Source: Manduca sexta (lineage: Eukaryota > Arthropoda > Insecta > Lepidoptera > Sphingidae). Taken from it: a DNA stretch of 64,000 nucleotides. Below, in pieces: positions 20,808 to 38,900 of this stretch. Each line of letters starts with the position of its first letter. Position 1 is the first letter of the stretch. The stretch lies in the NCBI RefSeq assembly GCF_014839805.1, contig NC_051123.1:1098727-1162726 (forward strand). The letters are read 5' to 3'. The notes beneath the pieces were generated by a model. That model did no database searches. It was not told the DNA's origin and saw only the letters and a program-made list of their open reading frames with translations. Both the position numbers and the translations under genes were made by a program.

Positions 20808-20922
20808 TCACTCAGTCTTCTCCTTGTTGGTGGGCTTGCCCCTGAACCACAGGATAAGATTCTTCAGCGACAGGACCACAGGGAACATTATCGGCAGGAA
20901 TAACGGAATGTAGATGGCGTAC
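20808..20922 (-). CDS. PIGS: PIGS exon 11 (C-terminal TM)
   Basis: Acceptor tttttttag|g; it begins with one nucleotide completing the Lys of DDQK, then YAIYIPLFLPIMFPVVLSL, the C-terminal membrane helix, a short cytoplasmic basic tail and TGA. This end is the most diagnostic part of the protein. Confidence 0.92.
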
Positions 20923-23900
20923 CTAAAAAAAAACAGCATTCTTAATTAAAATTTTGTCAAAATCACTTCCAGACGTGCAATTTACGGCTTTGTGTTAATA
21001 ATTAATTTTGGATAGGTCGTGAAATTGGATCAATCAGGTCGTAGTTTATTTGATATTGATTAGTCATTTATATCGTATTGGTCGGTTGGTTGGTGGTATC
21101 CTTATCCAAGTATTGCTGTTAAATAAGTGGTAGATTTTTTCAGTACATGAAAATTCATTCAGTCCCTACCATGATAATAATAAATGAATGAATAATGTCG
21201 TTGTAGGATTTATAAAAGTCTTATTGGCAGTCCGCCAAGCGACATGGAAGTACGGTTATTAGTGACGTAGTATGGTTTCTTATTGTCCGGGGCGGACGTA
21301 ACTTTGTTATCCCAAGGAATCGAGGGAAGCAAGTAGAAGTCATGTGCGTTCCCTCTAGCTACTGGTACATGCGACATTTTTTAAATTATCGCTTGAACGG
21401 TGAAGGAAAACGTCGTGAGGAAACCTGCATACCTTAGAAGTTCCTAATAAGAATTTTGAGTGTACGTGAAGTCTGCCAACCTACATTAGGCCAGCGTGGT
21501 GGACTAAGGCCTAATCCCTCTCAGTAGTAGAGGAGGCCCGTGCTCAGCAGTGGGACAGCATATATAGGGCTGATATTATTATTATTATTATTATATATGC
21601 GACGGATATCATTCAAAATGTATACTATGTTATAAGCAGAATAGTGACAAGTATTTCTCATCACACCCTAACCGTCTCTCAGTAACAGAAGAGGCCCGTG
21701 TTCAGCAGTTGGACAGTATATAATACAGGGGTGTTAAAGACTAGTATAGAGGAGTCCACTCACTTCTGATCATCCGGGAAGTACAGGAGCGCCAGCAGGC
21801 TGGGCTCGGTGAAGGCGGACTCGGCGGCTGTGCGCGCGGCCTGCGCGGCGGCGTGCGCGCGCACCACGTCCCGCGCGCACAGCGCTGCGCCCGCGCCGAT
21901 GTGACTCACCGCCGCTGTTATGGACGCGCCCACCGAGTCGTTGATTACTATGTTCGATATTTCACCTGGAATGTGTTACAGATGCGTTTAGTTATAAATG
22001 GTATAAATGTACATGTTTCAGTAGATTTTTACATCATAATCCTTTATGTGAAAATAATATCTACACCTGTATTAAAATATAATATTTTGAGTACATTTCT
22101 ACGACAAAATTTAAACAAGAACGCATGTACAACGAATCATTTTTCTTCAGATATTAATAGTTTTAACTAAACAAAATTTCGGTATCCCGTAGCCTACATC
22201 CAAAAAACATTTTACTGTAGTTTTCAAAACAATTCCCCTACAAAAGTATGTCACGTTACGCGATCAGCTTTTATATATTCAATTTCAAAGAAGCCGGTAT
22301 AATTGTGTCGACTGACGAGAGTTAATATCTTTCGTCAGTCGACACTCTATCCTTTACTTATCATCACATACACTGAGGTCACTTTATGGTGACTCCAAAA
22401 ATAAAAGATCTGTCATATTTATAACAATAAGAAACCTCACCCAACAACTGTGCCAGCGACTGTAGCGTCCTCTCGGCGGAGGTGAGCTGCTCGAGGGTCC
22501 TGATGCGGAGCAGACTGTCGATCTCCCAGCGGCGCGGGATCACAGACCGCAGCGGTTCCAAGTAAGCGCCCTCTATGAAATCCTGCAAAAATTACATTTT
22601 TTTTTATGCCAAGTTTCTTCCTCATCATAATTTCGCTGGTTCACCATCACAAAGTTCTATTTTAATTTTTATGGATGTTTAAAAAAATGATTAAAATTTT
22701 CATGTTGGTAAACATTAAAGGATAAATATGGTTTCCCCTCTCTTTCGGATTTATTGAAATATTCACTGAAAATTATTTATAATCAAGTGAAATAAAGAAC
22801 ATAGAGCCTTGTCACAGTGAGCCGTCGGTTTAATAAAGTGCCATCTCACCGGTTCGATCATCCCCAACAGCTTCCGGAGCTGCGACACGAAGGCGCCCAT
22901 GACTTGCGTGACGTCGGGCCGGAACACGCGCCGCTCGGCGCAGGCGGCGGCGGGCGGGCTCGCCAGCACCACGCCGCCCCACTTCGGCGACATGAACGCT
23001 TGCACCGGCGTCGTCAGGGGCTTGTCTGACAACAATATACATTGGTGTATTTTTCTTTTTTTTAGGATCCAAGCATTGCTCTTGACTGTACAGCTTACGC
23101 CCTCCACACCGGCGGAGATGGAAACAGAGGGAGAAAGTTCGTTCGTGCGAAAGTGATACAAAAGGTCACGACCGATATGGAGGAATAACGACGCAAAGAG
23201 AGAGATTTTTATTTCGGGCTTTAACGTCGGTCGAAGTAGTGACATATATTTGATCCATTGATATTTAAATCACAAGCCTATAACCATGATAAAATTACGT
23301 GTACGTTCACAGAGTAGCGACGTCGCTATCTGCATTGTTTTCGGTCGGACATTCTTCCTATTCTTCTATCTGTCTCACTCGCTCCTCTTTGCCGCTCATG
23401 TTCGGTACAGCAGCAGCGACAGCCGGTCCTGCCGCACCGCGTAGTGTCTGTTGTCTCACCGTCGTGTGTGTATATGACGAGCGGCGCGGCGTGGCAGGGC
23501 GTGAGGTAGAGCGCGAGGTTGAGCGCGGGCACGTCGGACACGTGCGTGGCGGCGCGCTCCTCCAGCCGCGTCAGCAGCAGCGACAGCCGGTCCTGCCGCA
23601 CCGCGTAGTGTCTGTTGTCTCACCGTCGTGTGTGTATATGACGAGCGGCGCGGCGTGGCAGGGCGTGAGGTAGAGCGCGAGGTTGAGCGCGGGCACGTCG
23701 GACACGTGCGTGGCGGCGCGCTCCTCCAGCCGCGTCAGCAGCAGCGACAGCCGGTCCTGCCGCACCGCGTAGTGTCTGTTGTCTCACCGTCGTGTGTGTA
23801 TATGACGAGCGGCGCGGCGTGGCAGGGCGTGAGGTAGAGCGCGAGGTTGAGCGCGGGCACGTCGGACACGTGCGTGGCGGCGCGCTCCTCCAGCCGCGTC

Positions 23901-26900
23901 AGCAGCAGCGACAGCCGGTCCTGCCGCACCGCGTAGTGTCTGTTGTCTCACCGTCGTGTGTGTATATGACGAGCGGCGCGGCGTGGCAGGGCGTGAGGTA
24001 GAGCGCGAGGTTGAGCGCGGGCACGTCGGACACGTGCGTGGCGGCGCGCTCCTCCAGCCGCGTCAGCAGCAGCGACAGCCGGTCCTGCCGCACCGCGTAG
24101 TGTCTGTTGTCTCACCGTCGTGTGTGTATATGACGAGCGGCGCGGCGTGGCAGGGCGTGAGGTAGAGCGCGAGGTTGAGCGCGGGCACGTCGGACACGTG
24201 CGTGGCGGCGCGCTCCTCCAGCCGCGTCAGCAGCAGCGACAGCCGGTCCTGCCGCACCGCGTAGTGTCTGTTGTCTCACCGTCGTGTGTGTATATGACGA
24301 GCGGCGCGGCGTGGCAGGGCGTGAGGTAGAGCGCGAGGTTGAGCGCGGGCACGTCGGACACGTGCGTGGCGGCGCGCTCCTCCAGCCGCGTCAGCAGCAG
24401 CGACAGCCGGTCCTGCCGCACCGCGTAGTGTCTGTTGTCTCACCGTCGTGTGTGTATATGACGAGCGGCGCGGCGTGGCAGGGCGTGAGGTAGAGCGCGA
24501 GGTTGAGCGCGGGCACGTCGGACACGTGCGTGGCGGCGCGCTCCTCCAGCCGCGTCAGCAGCAGCGACAGCCGGTCCTGCCGCACCGCGTAGTGTCTGTT
24601 GTCTCACCGTCGTGTGTGTATATGACGAGCGGCGCGGCGTGGCAGGGCGTGAGGTAGAGCGCGAGGTTGAGCGCGGGCACGTCGGACACGTGCGTGGCGG
24701 CGCGCTCCTCCAGCCGCGTCAGCAGCAGCGACAGCCGGTCCTGCCGCACCGCGTAGTGTCTGTTGTCTCACCGTCGTGTGTGTATATGACGAGCGGCGCG
24801 GCGTGGCAGGGCGTGAGGTAGAGCGCGAGGTTGAGCGCGGGCACGTCGGACACGTGCGTGGCGGCGCGCTCCTCCAGCCGCGTCAGCAGCAGCGACAGCC
24901 GGTCCTGCCGCACCGCGTAGTGTCTGTTGTCTCACCGTCGTGTGTGTATATGACGAGCGGCGCGGCGTGGCAGGGCGTGAGGTAGAGCGCGAGGTTGAGC
25001 GCGGGCACGTCGGACACGTGCGTGGCGGCGCGCTCCTCCAGCCGCGTCAGCAGCAGCGACAGCCGGTCCTGCCGCACCGCGTAGTGTCTGTTGTCTCACC
25101 GTCGTGTGTGTATATGACGAGCGGCGCGGCGTGGCAGGGCGTGAGGTAGAGCGCGAGGTTGAGCGCGGGCACGTCGGACACGTGCGTGGCGGCGCGCTCC
25201 TCCAGCCGCGTCAGCAGCAGCGACAGCCGGTCCTGCCGCACCGCGTAGTGTCTGTTGTCTCACCGTCGTGTGTGTATATGACGAGCGGCGCGGCGTGGCA
25301 GGGCGTGAGGTAGAGCGCGAGGTTGAGCGCGGGCACGTCGGACACGTGCGTGGCGGCGCGCTCCTCCAGCCGCGTCAGCAGCAGCGACAGCCGGTCCTGC
25401 CGCACCGCGTAGTGTCTGTTGTCTCACCGTCGTGTGTGTATATGACGAGCGGCGCGGCGTGGCAGGGCGTGAGGTAGAGCGCGAGGTTGAGCGCGGGCAC
25501 GTCGGACACGTGCGTGGCGGCGCGCTCCTCCAGCCGCGTCAGCAGCAGCGACAGCCGGTCCTGCCGCACCGCGTAGTGTCTGTTGTCTCACCGTCGTGTG
25601 TGTATATGACGAGCGGCGCGGCGTGGCAGGGCGTGAGGTAGAGCGCGAGGTTGAGCGCGGGCACGTCGGACACGTGCGTGGCGGCGCGCTCCTCCAGCCG
25701 CGTCAGCAGCAGCGACAGCCGGTCCTGCCGCACCGCGTAGTGTCTGTTGTCTCACCGTCGTGTGTGTATATGACGAGCGGCGCGGCGTGGCAGGGCGTGA
25801 GGTAGAGCGCGAGGTTGAGCGCGGGCACGTCGGACACGTGCGTGGCGGCGCGCTCCTCCAGCCGCGTCAGCAGCAGCGACAGCCGGTCCTGCCGCACCGC
25901 GTAGTGCCGACCCCAGTCGCTCTTGTCCTTTATCTGGAAACCAACGTGGAACTATGAACTACTTTTTATTCACCCCATATAATGAGATTCGCGCCCTATT
26001 ACATGGGACCTAACGTACCTAGCGAAATTTTAATGCGATACATTCGCCATCCTAAAATAGAATTCGTCAAGTACACTAGCTACAATTTCCTTCAAAACGG
26101 AACACAACAGTGAATAAACACTGCTGCTTTGGCGGTAGAAATAGACATGGCGATGGTACCAACCCCGGCGGAATCTTTCATACGAGAGACCTAACACCAG
26201 TTATGTAACTTGATCTTGACAAAAGTTAATCTCGAGGCAAGCTTTTATCTCTACCTTTTTTCTCTACATATGCAGGTTACTTTTTTTAAAGAATTTAAAT
26301 AAAAACTTGACGTTAAAAAAATATATCTTTTAATTTTTCCAGCAAATCTTTTAATTTGATAGCCATATTATAGGAGTGCGTAATGAGTACCTAGTCCGCC
26401 ATCTTAAATGATCTGCCATATTGGATTTAGAGTGAAGTAATTAAATTTTTATATTCTTCTTAGCAAACCATTTCATTTCATATTAGGGGCGTGCATAAAA
26501 AATAACTAGTTCATCATCTTGGACCGTCCGCCATATTGGATTTAGAAACACGTCTCTTACCTAACCGTGTCTTGTCATCCAAACTATATTTGTGTGTCAA
26601 ATTTAATCCTTATCGGTTGAGAAAAACTACATTAAAATTCATTTGCTAAATTAGGCCCAAACCTACATACAAATAAGTTAAATAAAAGCTCGTCAAAAAG
26701 TGCAACATTATAAGACATAATAACGAACTGCGAACCTAATACAGTATCACTGCAAATTAAATCAGTCTAGGAACCAAAACATGCTTATATCTGAATGTAG
26801 ACCTACCTCTTTAGCTTGGAAGTCGAAGTTCAGCAGATAAAGCCACTGGGACTTGAGCGTAAAGTTGTGCAGCACGCTCAACTCGTCCACGAACGAGCCG

Positions 26901-29900
26901 ATGTAATCTGGAACGAGAATATTCGTGTTTAAAGATCTGGTGTGACGAGTGCCGTAATTGGACTTTAAAGGGAAATTATTTGAATGTGGCTTCTTACATG
27001 AAAAATCTTTACCTTCCTATATTTATAGTATAAATTTTTCCGACAAAAAACTTTGTAAATTTTAGCAAAATTTTGGGGTCTCTTGAATTTGGGATCCGTG
27101 ATATTTTTCCCGTAATTTTATCTGTGACTTCTTCGATACCCACTGTCAAGTTGGATGTAAAAGAGGGGGGGGGGGGATAGGGACGAAACTGGATTTGTTA
27201 TATTATACAAAGAGCATCAAATTAATTGTTATGTAAGCAATGTTAAGTGTTATATTATATTACATCATAAATCACTTCAGGATCCTTACCGTCCAGAGCC
27301 TCAGCGGCAGCGAACTCGACCTGCATCTGGTCAGGCTTGGGATGCACCACGGACAGCACCACGTGGTAGGAATCTGCTGGCGGGAAGCGAGTGCGTCGCG
27401 CTGTGTCGGCCGTGTCCGACCGCGCGCCCACCAGCGTGCTAGTCTGGTACACCCAGCGTTTCAGCGCTTGGACTATTGTGGGAGCGGCTAGGAAAAACAA
27501 AAAATCGAATGCATCTTTGTTAAATTGACCGCCGTGAGTTGATATAATAATTAAATTGTTGTATCTATGAACAAATAATTAAAATTCAATACGATTGTGT
27601 TAAAAAACATAAATGTACAAAGAATGGATTTGGCATTACACCCCATTCCTGAAGTCTCTGATTTATACCCCGGATCGAGAAATAATGTTTTTTTTTTTCT
27701 CATATCAACCCGAAGTCCGAAATCATACTCTGTAAATAAGGTATTAATAAATTCACCTCCTACTTGGGAACCAAATGTACTTCGAATGTAAATTACAGTT
27801 CTACCCACCTCTACAGAGATAACCAGATGCTTTATATGTATCAAATAGTACACCGACTCAACGTTCAACCAACCTTTACCATCCCTGAAGAACATGACCC
27901 GCTCAGCGCCGAGCCAAACATCCTGGAACAGTGGCTTCCTCTGCACCAGATGAAACGTATTATGTCTGGTCAGGTCCACACTCTTGGCCACCTCCTCTAG
28001 GGCTTCGTGCTCGTCCGCCACGGAGGTCAGGGTCCGTTGGAGGTCGGCTGGTGTGCGCTGTTTATTTATCTTCAGCTTTATTATGTCTGTAATGTAGTTG
28101 TATTTTTGATTAGATGTCTATCAAGTTTTATCTTTGTGGGATACAATGTATGAACGTATTACATTTGATAGTATAGTGTGATTTATTGTTATTAGTCTGT
28201 TATTTATTAGTATTACAATATCTATGACTAGGAAATCGAATTATACACTACTTAGTCACTGTAAAATTACTTTTGTTGCAGAATTAATCATATCGAAGTA
28301 TAACGCCAAGTAACTAATATGGTAACTAATGCAAAATGTCAACTGTGATCATTTGCCCTTAATCTACAAACACCAGCATCGTGTACGTCTAACAATGGCG
28401 AAGAATGAAATTTTCCAAAAGAAAACCCAACATATATGTTCCAAAAATATGCATACATGTCTGCAAGTCGTTCTATTGATAACTAGATGTTAGATAAATT
28501 ACAAAAGGGAAGTCGATAGTAATCGGGTTATATGGACCTTCGCTACTGTTGTCTAAAAGCATTTTCAATTCAATCTTCGATACGCATCGAGAGACGTGCA
28601 CTAATTTCATCATCAACCAAAAATCTGATTTCTAAGTGATAGAAGAGATTTTTTGAATTTACTTTTACTACATAAGATTATGAATGCCCCTTACTTCCTT
28701 AATAAGTTTTTATTAAAGGGACCACATAGACCACCTTGAAAACTAACTGCTTGTATCTAGAGTTACAATTACATAAGATTACATACTGTTACTATATATG
28801 TACATGTGTGGATTTAAATTGAATTGTAAACTCCGTTAGCAGTCCGTTAATAATTATAAATAAATAAACATACCAGAATCAGCAAAGGCCTTTTCGATTT
28901 CGTCAATGACTACCGCGGCGGTGGCATCGTCGTCGGCCAGGACAGTGAGCTCAGTCGTGATGGAGTGCTTCAGGGGCTCGAAGGCGCTAATCTTGTCGTA
29001 CGGGAGAGCTACTCTGGAATCGAATAAATACCCTTGCTATATCGTTTTGATCCCTCGTTTCTTTGGTTCTGTTTACTCGTCCTGCCAAGCTGCAGTGTTC
29101 AGCTCTCTTGTATTGTAGTATAGGTATAGCCAGTGCAATTAGTTTCATCGAACATCTAACATCGCGGCGTGTCGCTTGTGCTATAAAGTTGTTTAATTTT
29201 GGACTAGTTTCTGCTCAGGGCTTCGCCAGCGTGAAGGAGGTTTCCGCGTTGAAAAATAATCCCGCTTTCTATTTTCCCGAGTGGCCTATAACCTTCCAAG
29301 GGTCTTAAACTATCTCCATACCAAATTACATAAAAACCCGTTCAGTAGATTTTGTGAAAATCGATCATATACAGACAGACAGAAAAAAGGACTTTGATTT
29401 ATAATATGTATAGAATATAGATGTTGTTACTATTTATAGTCGTACCGGTAATCATAACATCAATTTCTTGTTAAAACAATTTTACCCAACGACGTGACAT
29501 TTGGCTCTCTGCCGGCATCCAGATTTTGGTGTGGAATTTTTTAATGAACGCATATGCTATAACGTTGAAATTCGGGGAGCTCATGTGGGGTTACACGAAA
29601 CTGGAAAGTTAACTCCTGTATGTTGGTTATCAGGATGTGATTTTGTTGTTATTAATAAAGCACTTGATGAAACTTAGATAAATGTATTCAAAGAGATAAA
29701 AGGGTATTGTACGTTAAAACAGTCAGAGACAAGAGAGATATAGAGAGGGGACTTAAAAATTAGTGATGTACGGTTTACTCCAACATCCTCCCTTGAACGC
29801 AAACCCATTGCAGTGGTGAAGACACGAAGCTTACAGTGGGGAAGGCCCTTAGTTAATGCATCAGCAATCATCTTGTCAGTGCATATATATTCCATTGTAA

Positions 29901-32900
29901 TTTGCCCAGCTGCGATTTTCTCTTTAATAAAATGGTATCTGACGTCTATGTGTTTGCTGCGTGCTTGATAGGCATCAGAACCTGAAATACTAATAGCACT
30001 CTGATTGTCACAGTATAAAGTTATAGGCATTTCAGAAACATTTTGATGGATGTCATTTTCAAGTTGTTGAAGCCAGAGTGCTTCCTGTGACGCTGAGGCC
30101 ATGGACATATATTCTGCTTCAGTGCTGGAAAGAGCAACTGTAGATTGTTTCTTTGAGTTCCAACTTATACATGCACCCTGAAAAACAAACAAATATCCAG
30201 TACATGATCTTCTATCTATAGTGTCATTGGCCCAATCTGCATCACAGAATCCAACAATATTGTTACTGTTCCTTTTGAAAGTTAGCTTCATATTAATTGT
30301 TCCTTTTTAGGTAGCTGAATATTCTTTTCACAGCAATCCAATGTTGCATTGTAGGATTGTTATTAAATCTGCTTGCAGAGTTAACAGCAAATGTTATATC
30401 CGGGCGAGTACCTTGTGACAAGTATAGTAGGCAACCAACAGATTCTTGATAGGGAACATTTTGCAGAATTTCATTTTCATTTTCAGCCACGGTTTCCAAT
30501 TGGAGTTCCAGCTTCAAATGGTGTTGTGACAGGTTTGCAGTTTGACATTTTAAATCTGTCTAAAATTTTCTCAATGTAAATTGATTGATCCAATGATATT
30601 TCATCTAAATTATTATTTTGTGAAATTTTAAGTCCAATACATTGCTGAGCTTTGCCAAGATCTTTCATTTTAAACTTTTCTTGTAGTTTTTCTTTTATAT
30701 ATGATGCAGATATATTATTATTAAAAAAACAAAGTATATCATCAACATACACTGCTATAAATATTATATCATGCTCATTATTAAGCCTGTAGTATATGCA
30801 AGGATCTACCATTGATCTCTTTAATCCAATCTCTAAAAGAGTGGCATTGAGCTTCTTATTCCATTGACGGCTGGCCTGTTTTAGGCCATACAGGGCTTTG
30901 TTAAGCCGACAAACTTTATTTTCTAGCTCATAACAAGGTGGTAAAGTCATGAATATTTCCTCTTCAACTTCTCCTTGAAGAAATGCTGTAACCGCATCCA
31001 TCTGATGGATTACCAGTTTGTATTTAGCTGCCAAGCCAACTAAGTATCTTATTGATGTATAGCGAACCACTGGAGCATAGACTTCATGATAATCAATGCC
31101 TTTTGTTTGTTTGAACCCCTTGATGACCAGTCTAGCTTTGTATCGCACTATGTTTCCAACATCATTTCTCTTTGTTTTATAGACCCATTTACATGGAATT
31201 AACTTTTTGCCTGGAGGTAAGTCTACTACAGTCCAGGTATTATTTTCAATTAATGACTGATATTCAGTTTCCATTGCCTTTTTCCACAAATCTGAGTCTT
31301 CACAATTTAATGCTTCAATATGACTTTGTGGCTCATTATCCAGGAGACTCATAGTAGACTCTGAGTTTAAACATAAAAATGAATTTAGTTCAGAATTATT
31401 AGTGGTTGTAACATCATTTTCATTATTTATATTTTGTTGTCGGTTTAGTCTGGGTCTTAAATTCATATTAAAAATCTCTGGTGAGCTAGAGCTATCTGTA
31501 GGTATGTAGGTTTCATCATTTGGGTCTTCATATGAGCTTGAATCATGATCTGTATAGCTTGTTTCATTATTTATTTCTTCAAAGTCTGGTTCTTCTTGAA
31601 AATATGTAATGTTGGTCTCATGACTATAATTATCTCCATTTGCTTCTAGATGTTTTTTTACATTAAATTTCTTAATTTTATTTTGAGATTCATCAATATT
31701 TTGGTTGAGGCTTTCTTCTAGAAATACTGCATCTCTACTCATCATAATTTGCTTATTTTTCTCATCAATAAAACGATAACCTTTGGTGCAGTCGCTATAT
31801 CCAATGAATGTCAATTTATGTGATTTGACATCTAATTTGTGACGCTTTTCCTTTGGAATATGAACCATTGCTGGGCATCCAAATACTTTCAAATGACTAA
31901 GGTCAGGCTTATATCCAGTCCATCGCTCTTCTGGTGTTACTTGTGGCAGTGAGCGAGTCGGTGATCTATTGATGATGTATGCTGCAGTTGCTATGGCTTC
32001 TGCCCAATACTCCTTCTGTAAAGAGGCATTAAATAACATGCATTTAGCTTTTTCAACTAAAGTCCGGTTCATCCTTTCACTTACACCGTTCTGTTCAGGT
32101 GTGTATGGAGTACTTGTCTCATGCTTAATACCAAAGTGTTTTAAACATTTGTCAAACTTGTGGTTTCTATACTCTTTCCATTGTCAGTTCTGAATATTTT
32201 AATTTTGCAGTCCAATTCATTTTCAACTTTATTTTTGAATTCTATAAATTTTTCAAACACCTCTGATTTTTGTTTTAGAAAATAGACAAATACTTTTTTA
32301 GAAAAATCATCTATAAATGTTAAAAAGTACCTTGCTCCTCCAATAGACTGATTTTCCATTGGTCCACATACATCACTGTGGATAAGCTCTAATAACTTTG
32401 ATGCCCGGTATCCTTCATGCTTAAAAGGTAGTCTGGTTTGCTTTGCTTGTAAACAAGGAATGCATGTTATTTCTTTGTTCTGCTGAGACATTTTCACACC
32501 TAATGTACAATCTGGAATCTTATTTAAATCATTAAAGTTAATATGACCCAGTCTTTGATGCCATAGATACTTGTCTACAGAAATTGCCGACATTGCTTTT
32601 CCACTATGACAGGATAATAATTTATATGTATTATTCACAAGTTTTGCATTGGCCACTACATGCCCTTGCTTGTTTTTTACTGCACAGCCATTTTCATTGA
32701 ATTCTACTTGATTTCCATTAGAAATGATTTTACTCACTGACAGTAAATTTGTGGATAAGTCAGGTACATATAGAACATCATTAACCTGAATACAGTCAGG
32801 AATTCCAGTAGCTTCATTTGGTACTTGTATAGTAACTGTGCCACAGCTGTGTACACTAAGTACTTTATTATCAGCAATCCTGATGTTGTCAACAGGCGGT

Positions 32901-35900
32901 GCCTTTTTTATTTTGAAGCCAATGGCCATGCATTGTCATGTGGGACGATGCTCCTGAGTCCACATACCAGCTAGTGTTGTCGTTTAGTAAAGAGGCTGAG
33001 AAAGCAGCAACAAAACTATTCTTAGTATCATTATTGTTTTCTTTTTTGTTTCTGAACCAACACTGTTTGCTAACATGACCGTGTTTATTACAATTAAAGC
33101 ATCGGGGTCCTTTAGGTTTTTCTGAATAAGTTGATTTATTTTTATTGTGTTGAGAGTTTTTGTATTTATTTGATTTTACATAAAAAGCAGTAGTAGTATC
33201 TGATCTCACTTCTTGTAACAATTTTGTCTTTATCAGATCGGCACTAATCTTTATACCAGAGCTCTCAATCCCCATTATCATAGGCTTGTATTCTTCGGGT
33301 AAACCAGCCAACATTAGTGTTCCAAGCCACTCACCGTCAACACTAAAACCTATTGCTCTCAGTTTGTGTGCTGCTGACATAATTTTATTAATGTAATCTT
33401 CTACGTTCGTACTTGAATTGAGATTAGTATTTATCAGATCTCTTAGAAGCCCAACTTTACGGAGAAGGCCGGAGTCTTCAAATGCTTTCGATAGCTTGTC
33501 CCATACCAATTTCGCAGTGCTGGCGTCTTGAACATGTACATATAGTTGTGGGTCTATTGATAGTATAATCTTAGACTTAGCTTTAATATCCTTTTTGTTA
33601 TCCACGGAGTCCACGGAGGTTATACATTCCCACAACTCCTCATGTTGCAGATATGCTTCCATTGCGAAATTTCCACGTCGAAAAATTATCTCTTCCGGTT
33701 AATTTTTGTATTGATAATGTGTTTGTAGTCATGTTGATAGTTTCGTAAAGATTTTGAAGCGGAAGGAAAATTTTGTCATGCGGTTTTTTTTTTGAGGTTA
33801 TACTCGAATTTATTAAACTTACTAAAAAGAACTTTTAGAAATCTTTAATAGAACGGGACGGCCCATAACCTGTTGTTATTAATAAAGCACTTGATGAAAC
33901 TTAGATAAATGTATTCAAAGAGATAAAAGGGTATTGTACGTTAAAACAGTCAGAGACAAGAGAGATATAGAGAGGGGACTTAAAAATTAGTGATGTACGG
34001 TGACCGGTGAGCTGTCTATGGGTCACTGGTATTTGCGTTTACTCCAACAGATTTACATATAATTCTTCAACAATGAAAATATCACGCAACTAGATAATAG
34101 GATATATGCAATATTTAAATATACCAAAGTTAACTGTTGAAGTTTAGATTGAAGAAATAGTATTGGTTGAACTTTACGACTTTTACCTTATTGGACCTGC
34201 TGCCCCTAGTAGGTGCCAAGTTATCAATCCTTAGCCTAATTAGGAATCCTATTTGAAAAGAAATGTTTATGATACACACGAAACGAATGTATGATCACAG
34301 GTCTCAAGAGCGTGCTACTGACCTCTCTATCATGAATGCGGGTCTCTTGACACGCACCAGGCCTTATTTACCTCAATGTATTAGATGATGAAATAATTAT
34401 CGTTATTGCTTGCTTTTGTTCTCCGCATTTCATTGTCGATTATATTGGCTAAAGTATGCAAATCATTTTCCGTCTTGAAATCCTTTTTGGAGATAAAATG
34501 TCGTGTGTGAAAAGTCGTTTTTATTCTAAAGTAAGTTTGGAAATCCAGCAACCGTTATTGAAATGAATTCTAGAAGACAATGAGAAATTCAAAAGGCGTT
34601 AGTAAGTTCTAATAGGTACAAATCATATGAACTTGGAAAAGAATTTTTTTATTAATCATAGATAGTGGTGTATTCACATGTATAGATGTAATGATAAAGT
34701 ATTAAAAACGAAAAACATGTTTGTTTTCTCCAAGTAAAACAAAATATGTGAAATGCAATATTATTTTTATCTTCAAGAGGGAATCTCCCAGACGATCAAT
34801 ATAACCTCCATGAGGCTTGAAGGACGCAGCAAATCCAATTAAAATGGCCAGACTATAAAATTAAAATGCACATACAATTCTTTTCCCCTATTTATCCTTG
34901 AAGCTAGGATCACTAACCCCTCAATGTCTTTAGTCTTATAAAATTTTATTACAATGTGTTGCAGAAACAATACTCTGATATTATGCTGTACTATCAAAAC
35001 TAACTAGTTGAATACTGAGTCATTTTATTCCTGAAGACGCGCCCATTACTTTCTCTAATCGCATCGCAATCGCAATACAGGCTGCGTGACTAGCAGGAGT
35101 TCACACACATACTATGAATAGTGTCGGGCAAAGTGCAATACCTCGTAACTGACAGAAAAAATTATAGAATTATCAATCAAAAGTTTCGTATATTAAGTGC
35201 CAATTTTAATTGGAACATTTACACTGTATTTAATGAGAGTTGTAAATTAACTAAGCTCTATGATCTGTAACGTCTGATAGTATTGAGCTAATTGGAAATC
35301 TAGACTTCTGCGTATAGCGATCAAAATCCAGTTCCCACCGCATCAAACACAATATATCAAGTTCAGTCTGTCATTTTCGTTTGATTATATGTGCATAGTG
35401 ACATTGGCGTCCTTCTTACCGATCGATAGCCGGGGTTAAAATGCAAGCTTAAAAAAAAGTAATAAAACTATTATCAGTCGAAAAAAGGTCGAAGTGTAAT
35501 TACTTCTGGCTAAATTGGAACGATACGGACACGAGACCGAATCTTATTGTTTATACTCGCGTTATCTTCTTTCATTTAATCTTTGGTTAATTTTATAGCC
35601 TTTTAAGGGGAAGGTTGAATGGATGTATTGCATCTGAGTGGCAATGGCGAAAGCTCCTTGTGTTTTGTGCTGGCTTCTTGGCAATATTTTCGTCCTTCAC
35701 CACTGCTAAGGGGCTGCTAATAACATTAACTTTGTAATAATATACTCTTCTGTTTCTCGCGGTCGCGTTGCTAGTCACAGGCCTTCTTTGCTATAGAAGG
35801 TTTAGACCTGAGTCTATAACGCTGGCCTAGTGCGGATTGGTAGGCTGTACATGCTCTTTCCTGTCAGCCTGAGCTGGTCTTTTTGTTTATTTTGTAGTCT

Positions 35901-38900
35901 CATTTGTTTTATGTGCAATATAAAATGTCTGTAGTTATATAAGTGACTTAATTGGAGGAATTATAATTATATAATTCTAATATTCTCATGTAACTTGGGT
36001 TATCATAAGTGCAACTATGTTCGCTAACATGAATAAATCATTTTATTTTATACTTTGAAAATTCAGTTTGCTCACAATGATTTTCCTTCACCGTTAACGC
36101 GAGCGATGGTTAACAAAAGTTGAATAGCGTGATGAACCTACGTCCAAGAAGCCACATTTTTAACTTTGATATCAGGTGTTGCGCATTGAACAAATAAACA
36201 ATTAATCACGTGACCATAACTACTTTGTTTGTTAAACCGCGAAATGTTTATATTTTGGTTTCAAACTTGTTTATGGTAAGGATTTTTTACACAAAGATAT
36301 GGCGATTTTAATCTATGTTTATTTTATGTGGATAATTCGAAGACAAGCCTATTAATTATACAATAATATACGTGCGCCGTATCATTTTGTAAGCACGTTT
36401 CCAATTAAATCAACGCTTAGGGGGTAATGTTGTGTTTGGTATAGATAAGACTTAATAAAAATATACAGCACAAGGCAAGAAGAGTAGGCAATTGGAAGAT
36501 AAATGGCTCGCTCTAAGTTTTTATAAGTATTAACTATAAGTAATACCGGGCCAAAATATTGTGACTGAGTTTTGGTGTGATACCCTGTGCCCCGAAAAAC
36601 ACGTAAAGCCGTTGGTCCTGCGCCTGATCTTTCTCCAGTTATGTCGGGTTGTCGTCTCACCGAACTATGAGAGTGAAGGAATAGAGAGTGCTTGTGTATT
36701 GCGCACAAACTTGTGCACTATAATATCTCCTGCGTTCTTGGCTGATCTCCTTGGTCGATTTTGGTCGCCGTGGCCGAAATTCGGTCAGGAAGGAATCAAT
36801 TAATCAAATCTATGCAGGAAAGTGACAATTCACGTCAGTTCCGTGAGAACAATGGTAATACCACAGATTACCTGACGGCATCACCCCGGTCGAGCCTGCT
36901 AGTTCACAAAGATTAACATTTAATATGATCGGCCAAATAAGATCGCAACTGAATCAATCGCTTGAAGGTTGATGTGAAGACTTACCGGTAGACTTCCGTA
37001 GTCTTCCACCAGAGCGGCATGCCGATGATGATGAGCACCCCGACGAACGAGGCGCTCGCCCACATACGGCTCGACTCTGAAATCAATGGGACATTATTAA
37101 TATTGTAAATCTGAAGATGTGTTTTAATTAAACACAGAAACTACTCAAAGGGTTGCTGGGGCCTTATTCTCTATCCCGCACGTTATTTTAACAGTGCTTA
37201 ACAAGCACGTAACACAACGCGTCATGTTTAGGACTATAGAAATTTAGCTTACAGAATACTATTCCACGCACATTTCTCGAAGATAACATGACACGGCCGC
37301 GTTACGCGTTTACACTATCATACAGAATAAGGGCCCTGGTTGTTTTATTTTTATTAAAAAGGTTTTATATAAAATTATATATGTATAAAGTATATTAAAA
37401 GATCGTGTCCTGAATGGCCTATTTTTTATTCCGGGAAAAAAAAATCATGACACCACGTGCGATATCTAGAATTTCATAAAAGCAAAGTAAGACTTATTAT
37501 GCAGCTCGATTCAAGGATTGTCATATGTATGTTAAAAACAGATTTTTCCGTTTGAATCTGTCTCGATTTGAACCATAGTACACAAGGTGTAAAATCCGCC
37601 ATCGTGGCTCACGTAAGCGTGTCGCTTACCTGGAGCCGTCAGTGTATATCTGGTTCAAAAAGGCCGGCATAATTGTGTCGACTGACGAGAGATGTTACCT
37701 CTTGCCAGTTGACACTATCAAGCCCCCTCTTCGCTTACCATCAGGTGTAGTGGCGACAGTGGAGTATCCGAAGAAAATGATAGCTATGGTATTTAAATAG
37801 TTAAGGGAATTTTATATGGTATTAACACAATACGGTGTAGCTGTATCATGGCACTGCAGAGCAGATCCCCGGGTCGGGCAAAGTGATATTAGGTTTCCTA
37901 CTAAAGTATCAGCCCAGAGGGAAATTTGTGCCCGATATCGCAATAGGCTCCGCACTCTATCATGTCCAACAACAGCCACATAAAGGTCTGCAACTATCGT
38001 GTTCCTGCGACTGCAAAGTGCGCTGTGAATGTTTCTTTTGTTTTCCTGACCAGGGTTTGTATCGATTATATCAGCTAGTTTTAGAGCATTGGACATAAAG
38101 ACTTCAACAGATGTCTTACTTGAGGCGCTATCACATCATGGGACGGAATACACATGGCAAAAAATGGGTGCATCAGTTATGACTCTCCCTAGTCCTTAGT
38201 CCTCTACGCCTTAAGGATAAAATGTGCGAGTGAGTGTAAAAAGGTATTTACGTTTATTAGCTCATTCTATAACCTTCATAGTATTTAAAACAAATAATTT
38301 ATAGCTGTCGCAGGACATAAACGGCACGCGCACAATACATGCGTCACACTCATGAGAATGCTGTCCACTCCATTTAATACTAACGAATACAATTTACAGA
38401 ACAATGCATATTTGATGTTATGATATAAAACCAGGGCGTGAATACTTATTAAACATATTGTAATAGTCTTCTTATACAATTAAATGACGAATTGAGTATA
38501 ATATTAGCCCTGTACTATATACTGTCTCTGAGACGGATTAGGTCTTAGTTCACCACGTTGGCTTAGTGCGGATTGGTAGACTTCACCCACCCTCAAAATT
38601 CTTATAAAGAATTTCTCAGGTGCGTAGGATTCCCCACGATGTTTTCCTTCACTGTTAAAGGCAGCAATAATTCACAAAGAATACATAGATTTAGAAGTCA
38701 GAGGTGTGTGCCCTTGGGTTTTGAACCTGTAGCCATTCTTCTGAAGTCTGTTCTGCAACTAACCAGGCTATCGCCGCTGATAATATTTATCATGTTCGAA
38801 TGTAATTTCAGAGCGGGCCGCTATGTTTTTATATACAACGTTCACAGTTTTTCTGTAGTGTATTTAGTATCAGCATCGCACCCGTGCGAAGCCGGGGCGA

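Follow-up and report, generated by a model that had tools for sequence, protein, structure and literature searches.

Here, we show that, in the assembly of Manduca sexta, an exon-intron boundary of the gene PIGS appears as a tandem array of a 164-bp unit, repeated about 15 times without a single mismatch, within the 64,000-nucleotide stretch of DNA that we analysed (the window). The array is a genuine feature of the assembly. On balance, and with modest confidence, we read it as a local, single-locus, minisatellite-like expansion in M. sexta PIGS, in which a 39-nt seed would have been followed by multiplication of the 164-bp interval, and splicing would still proceed from the first of the repeated donors.

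Structure and borders of the array

The features of the array are as follows (positions are those of the window).
23408..25906, minus strand: tandem array, 164-bp unit x 15.24, copies all identical (Tandem Repeats Finder and script)
25743..25906, minus strand: first unit in transcript order, made of 151 nt of exon 7 (25756-25906) and 13 nt of intron 7 (25743-25755)
25868..25906, minus strand: 39 nt within exon 7 from which the seed duplication is presumed to derive
23408..23446, minus strand: terminal partial copy of 39 nt, identical to 25868-25906 and followed directly by intron that matches only itself in the assembly

Tandem Repeats Finder (TRF) describes 23408-25906 in one row (period 164, 15.2 copies, 100% matches, 0% indels), and a script comparison at period 164 counted 0 mismatches across the 2,499 bp. 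The periodic run stops exactly at 23408 and 25906, with not one base further on either side, and the window contains no N. Chance is no candidate for the origin of the array. The unit has a GC content of 69.5% and a CpG ratio of 1.34, and a simple pattern search found no quadruplex motifs in it.

A first-pass annotation of the same DNA had placed 15 identical 164-bp copies at these positions, which both tools bear out. It had also described the unit as a PIGS coding exon plus its 5' splice site, and this holds in part: the unit is exon-derived and does carry the donor, but it is not the whole exon. The array starts 27 nt inside PIGS exon 7, and the unit comprises the other 151 of the 178 nt together with the first 13 nt of intron 7. 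New beyond that annotation is the 39-nt partial copy at the end of the array, the total length of which equals 15 x 164 + 39. Outside the 39 nt, the contexts of the two copies (25868-25906 and 23408-23446) show no match to each other.

The PIGS gene

The gene model, with exon borders set by eye, is predicted from sequence.
20808..37076, minus strand: PIGS gene, ten exons provisionally numbered 2-11
37076-36986, minus strand: exon 2 (provisional)
29013-28874, minus strand: exon 3 (provisional)
28086-27880, minus strand: exon 4 (provisional)
27487-27290, minus strand: exon 5 (provisional)
26907-26807, minus strand: exon 6 (provisional)
25756..25933, minus strand: exon 7 (provisional), 178 nt, the sole copy with an acceptor (acceptor TTTCCAG/ATA, donor ACG/GTGAGACA); its first 27 nt (25907-25933) lie outside the array
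23026..25755, minus strand: intron 7 as predicted from donor 1, 2,730 nt
22850..23025, minus strand: exon 8 (provisional); its acceptor, GTTGTCAG/ACA, is the next one used by the gene model and is in phase with donor 1
22582-22441, minus strand: exon 9 (provisional)
21965-21764, minus strand: exon 10 (provisional)
20922-20808, minus strand: exon 11 (provisional)

Joined across nine GT-AG introns, the ten predicted exons give an open frame of 515 aa followed by a stop; no stop-free frame in the window exceeds 566 codons, and a first exon of PIGS was not located. The spliced product matches the profile PF10510 over residues 9-504 (E = 8.9e-110; 368.5 bits, cut-off 26) as well as 7wld_S, the PIG-S chain of a solved GPI transamidase, which we take to be the human chain (E = 5e-62). 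A profile score above the cut-off and one open product thus place PIGS in PF10510. These results uphold the earlier naming of the host gene, and with it the claim that the array lies inside its parent gene, the unit deriving from PIGS exon 7 and sitting in that same gene. When the whole assembly was searched with PF10510, all 18 matches fell at C9:1120489-1124695, inside the window (C9:1098727-1162726), in a search that caught exons 7-10 and the array copies and missed the other exons; the 14 control genomes gave 0 matches. Neither a second PIGS locus nor an unplaced haplotig was found among the 4,056 sequences of the assembly, in a search that a fragment holding only the unmatched exons would escape.

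Other repeats are present in the introns of PIGS. The intron between exons 2 and 3 holds a Copia-like retroelement at 29644-34001, its likeness to Copia resting on reading-frame pieces recognised by eye. A direct repeat of 131 nt bounds it on either side, and the identity of these two end repeats suggests a young insertion; no flanking target duplication was seen at its borders. Between the array and exon 8, intron 7 contains a dispersed repeat (23066-23216) that many scaffolds match at 71-85% identity, and further dispersed repeats occupy 26072-26700 in the intron that separates exon 6 from exon 7 (flank search, best 40 of 2,701 candidates).

Occurrence in the genome and relation to known repeat classes

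A query of three units was compared with the 470-Mb assembly (470,002,661 bases in 4,056 sequences) by a search that limits scoring to the best candidates and passes over very common words, and 8 of its 8 matches lay inside the array. The array is a single-locus, minisatellite-like structure and not a satellite; the term satellite, used in the first-pass annotation, has to be dropped for a unit found at one 2.5-kb site only. A mobile-element origin is not favoured, as the three-unit query matched this site alone.

We also ran TRF on 218,936 bases in 37 records of the assembly, the window included and 18 other records overlapping it excluded. The array was the only one of 27 rows to combine a period of at least 30 with matches of at least 95%, in a sample that covers ~0.05% of the genome, was picked by repeat matches plus a few positions, and is no measure of frequency. 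The sole other array in this sample with a period of at least 100 is a 138-bp array of 4.9 copies at 87% (L050:8749-9436; two TRF rows), which lies on the same scaffold, ending ~0.6 kb short of the window.

Among known systems, minisatellites, or VNTRs, are the closest: the array is likewise single-locus, GC-rich (69.5%), head-to-tail, a few kb long and located in a gene, and its unit length falls within the tens to few hundred bp that define them. A unit of 164 bp is, however, longer than in most minisatellites, and the PIGS unit is mostly coding exon and spans a splice junction. VNTRs also differ in copy number from allele to allele; the PIGS array is seen here in one assembly, with no other PIG-S match among its 4,056 sequences in the search described above. 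With satellite DNA the array shares its tandem arrangement and homogeneity, and unit lengths of 164 bp are common among satellites. Satellites, however, form long arrays or occupy many loci, whereas the PIGS array is only 2,499 bp long, is intragenic and was found at no other place in the assembly. Tandem exon duplication that creates alternative exons also repeats exon sequence within its own gene, but the PIGS units lack the exon acceptor, their length is not a multiple of 3, and they do not look like exchangeable exons. Each copy of a usable exon would have both an acceptor and a donor; here, with cryptic acceptors judged by eye, the acceptor lies 27 nt before the array. A limited literature search, judged by titles and the openings of abstracts, found no comparable array, and the words "tandem" and "duplication" occur 0 times each in the main text of a population study of M. 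sexta (PMC9073680).

Copy identity and assembly quality

According to the available text of the assembly paper (PMC8022704), JHU_Msex_v1.0 of Manduca sexta was built from Nanopore R9.4.1 reads (19.47 Gb yield, read N50 9,156) with Canu 2.0, followed by nanopolish and then by Racon with Illumina reads aligned by Bowtie2. Dividing the 19.47 Gb by 470 Mb ourselves, we obtain a long-read coverage of ~41x. Reads of 150 bases would have no unique placement in a perfect 164-bp array, and polishing is therefore expected to pull the copies to one consensus. The first-pass annotation had taken the identical copies to indicate a very recent expansion, strong homogenisation or an assembly artefact; the identity is there, but the step from identity to youth is weakened by the Illumina polishing reported in PMC8022704, and the artefact that it named keeps some probability. 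Because a Nanopore assembly was polished with short reads, copy identity proves neither youth nor artefact, and as a sign of youth it is weak. The copy number stands on firmer ground, since long reads can span 2.5 kb, but is still provisional. At 2.9e-9 changes per site per generation, as in Heliconius, zero changes in 2,499 bp would correspond to a 95% upper age limit of about 4e5 generations, which applies only if neither polishing nor conversion has levelled the copies.

The same considerations bear on whether the array could be an assembly artefact, that is, one or a few true copies that Nanopore read correction and Canu made or inflated into a 15-copy array and that polishing then equalised. 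We regard this as unlikely, albeit deserving of serious weight. To our knowledge, no assembly error mode yields 15 orderly copies of an exon piece, which counts against it, and biology offers a simple account of the 39-nt overhang. The window is free of N, and at ~41x coverage with a read N50 of 9,156, many long reads should span the 2.5 kb, although identical copies, from R9.4.1 Nanopore reads processed with Canu, nanopolish and Racon with Illumina data (PMC8022704), are what such an artefact could look like.

Origin of the array

In the local expansion that we favour, a copy of 39 nt of exon 7 would first have landed in intron 7, 13 nt beyond the donor, so that two 39-bp direct repeats stood 164 bp apart. 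The 164-bp interval would then have been multiplied to ~15 copies, with the 39-bp repeats as partners for slippage, unequal exchange or rolling-circle copying. Minisatellite expansion from a short direct repeat is a classical model. A simple tandem duplication would produce complete units and, by chance, a few extra bases, so that the 39-nt overhang would mean either a repeat in the progenitor or a later loss at the end. Given a length of 15 x 164 + 39, native sequence on both flanks with nothing further lost requires a progenitor that already contained a 39-bp direct repeat. We prefer the 39-bp seed because one event accounts for both borders.

The sequence that adjoins the array end behaves as expected for native intron, at least in its matches: a 118-nt query (23290-23407) returned one match in the assembly at E up to 1, namely itself. 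Three separate 8-mers of the unit recur in the 120 nt of intron beyond the array (23344-23387), which is above expectation: three are reached in 2 of 5,000 dinucleotide shuffles, and at least three in 8 of 4,084 overlapping windows of real sequence taken from both strands at a GC of 0.40 or more. These words were spotted after the fact, and their order differs from that in the unit. The 39-bp seed model does not explain these shared 8-mers. The flank was also considered as a decayed copy of the unit and this was rejected, the best local alignment being an 8-mer whose score was reached in 373 of 1,000 shuffles.

Alternatively, a 164-bp segment comprising the end of exon 7 and the start of intron 7 could have undergone plain tandem duplication and expansion, with subsequent deletion of the end of the array and perhaps of some intron. 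The outcome would be the same sequence as that left by a 39-bp seed, and the point where the array stops, in exon sequence beside intron that matches only itself, could be a deletion breakpoint. Such a course nevertheless takes two events beyond the expansion, as against one for the 39-bp seed, and we find it distinctly unlikely.

Predicted splicing past the array

The array repeats one splice signal.
23459..25755, minus strand: 15 identical 5' splice sites, with first intron bases at 25755, 25591, 25427 ... 23459, every 164 bp

Each unit brings one donor, ACG/GTGAGACA, and never the exon 7 acceptor. The first-pass annotation was therefore right that a single acceptor-bearing exon stands at the 5' end of the transcript, the later units having no exon acceptor, and its suggestion that splicing could proceed normally past the array agrees with an intact predicted product of 515 aa via the first donor. 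In computed splices, donor 1 joined to the exon 8 acceptor gives the full PIGS product, and donors 2-15 joined to the same acceptor all (14/14) run into a stop once 321 residues have been read from the start of exon 2; as 164 cannot be divided by 3, the copies leave the frame. On paper, PIGS would be readable past the array if the first donor is used, its acceptor, donor 1 and the exon 8 acceptor being intact and in phase. Without the 2,335 nt of array behind the first unit, intron 7 would measure 395 nt.

Under the favoured expansion from a 39-nt seed, the acceptor-bearing exon would pair with the first donor, the other 14 donors would leave with the enlarged intron 7, and the PIGS protein would still be made. 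Judged from these predictions, the array is most likely a tolerated accident with no function of its own, and the expansion was most likely recent or homogenised, its tolerance being due to a first donor that remains usable. We consider it quite improbable that the locus, with its natural row of 15 identical donors following a single acceptor, is instead a length-variable splice rheostat that arose from the gene's own exon and in which the number of copies determines the share of PIGS transcript spliced non-productively. It is highly improbable that the array is in use through 14 extra donors acting as poison sites, which would send part of the PIGS transcripts to decay and let copy number tune output: each of these donors has the sequence of donor 1 and leads to an early stop, and classical work on duplicated donors shows that the donor nearest the intron can compete well, but no sequence feature demands selection, and the absence of the exon's acceptor from the later copies favours the donor of the real exon.

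Implications

For M. sexta, the available text of PMC8022704 describes publicly deposited Nanopore and Illumina reads (PRJNA658700) together with 67 RNA-seq sets, and that of PMC9073680 describes moths that were resequenced and a sample of M. quinquemaculata as outgroup (SRP144217, PRJNA639154), so that the questions raised here could be answered without new sampling. If real, the array would show how a tandem array can arise from a 39-bp seed while both of its borders remain legible. It would also constitute a natural experiment on donor choice: within the gene of a GPI transamidase subunit, 15 identical donors would lie between one upstream and one downstream acceptor.
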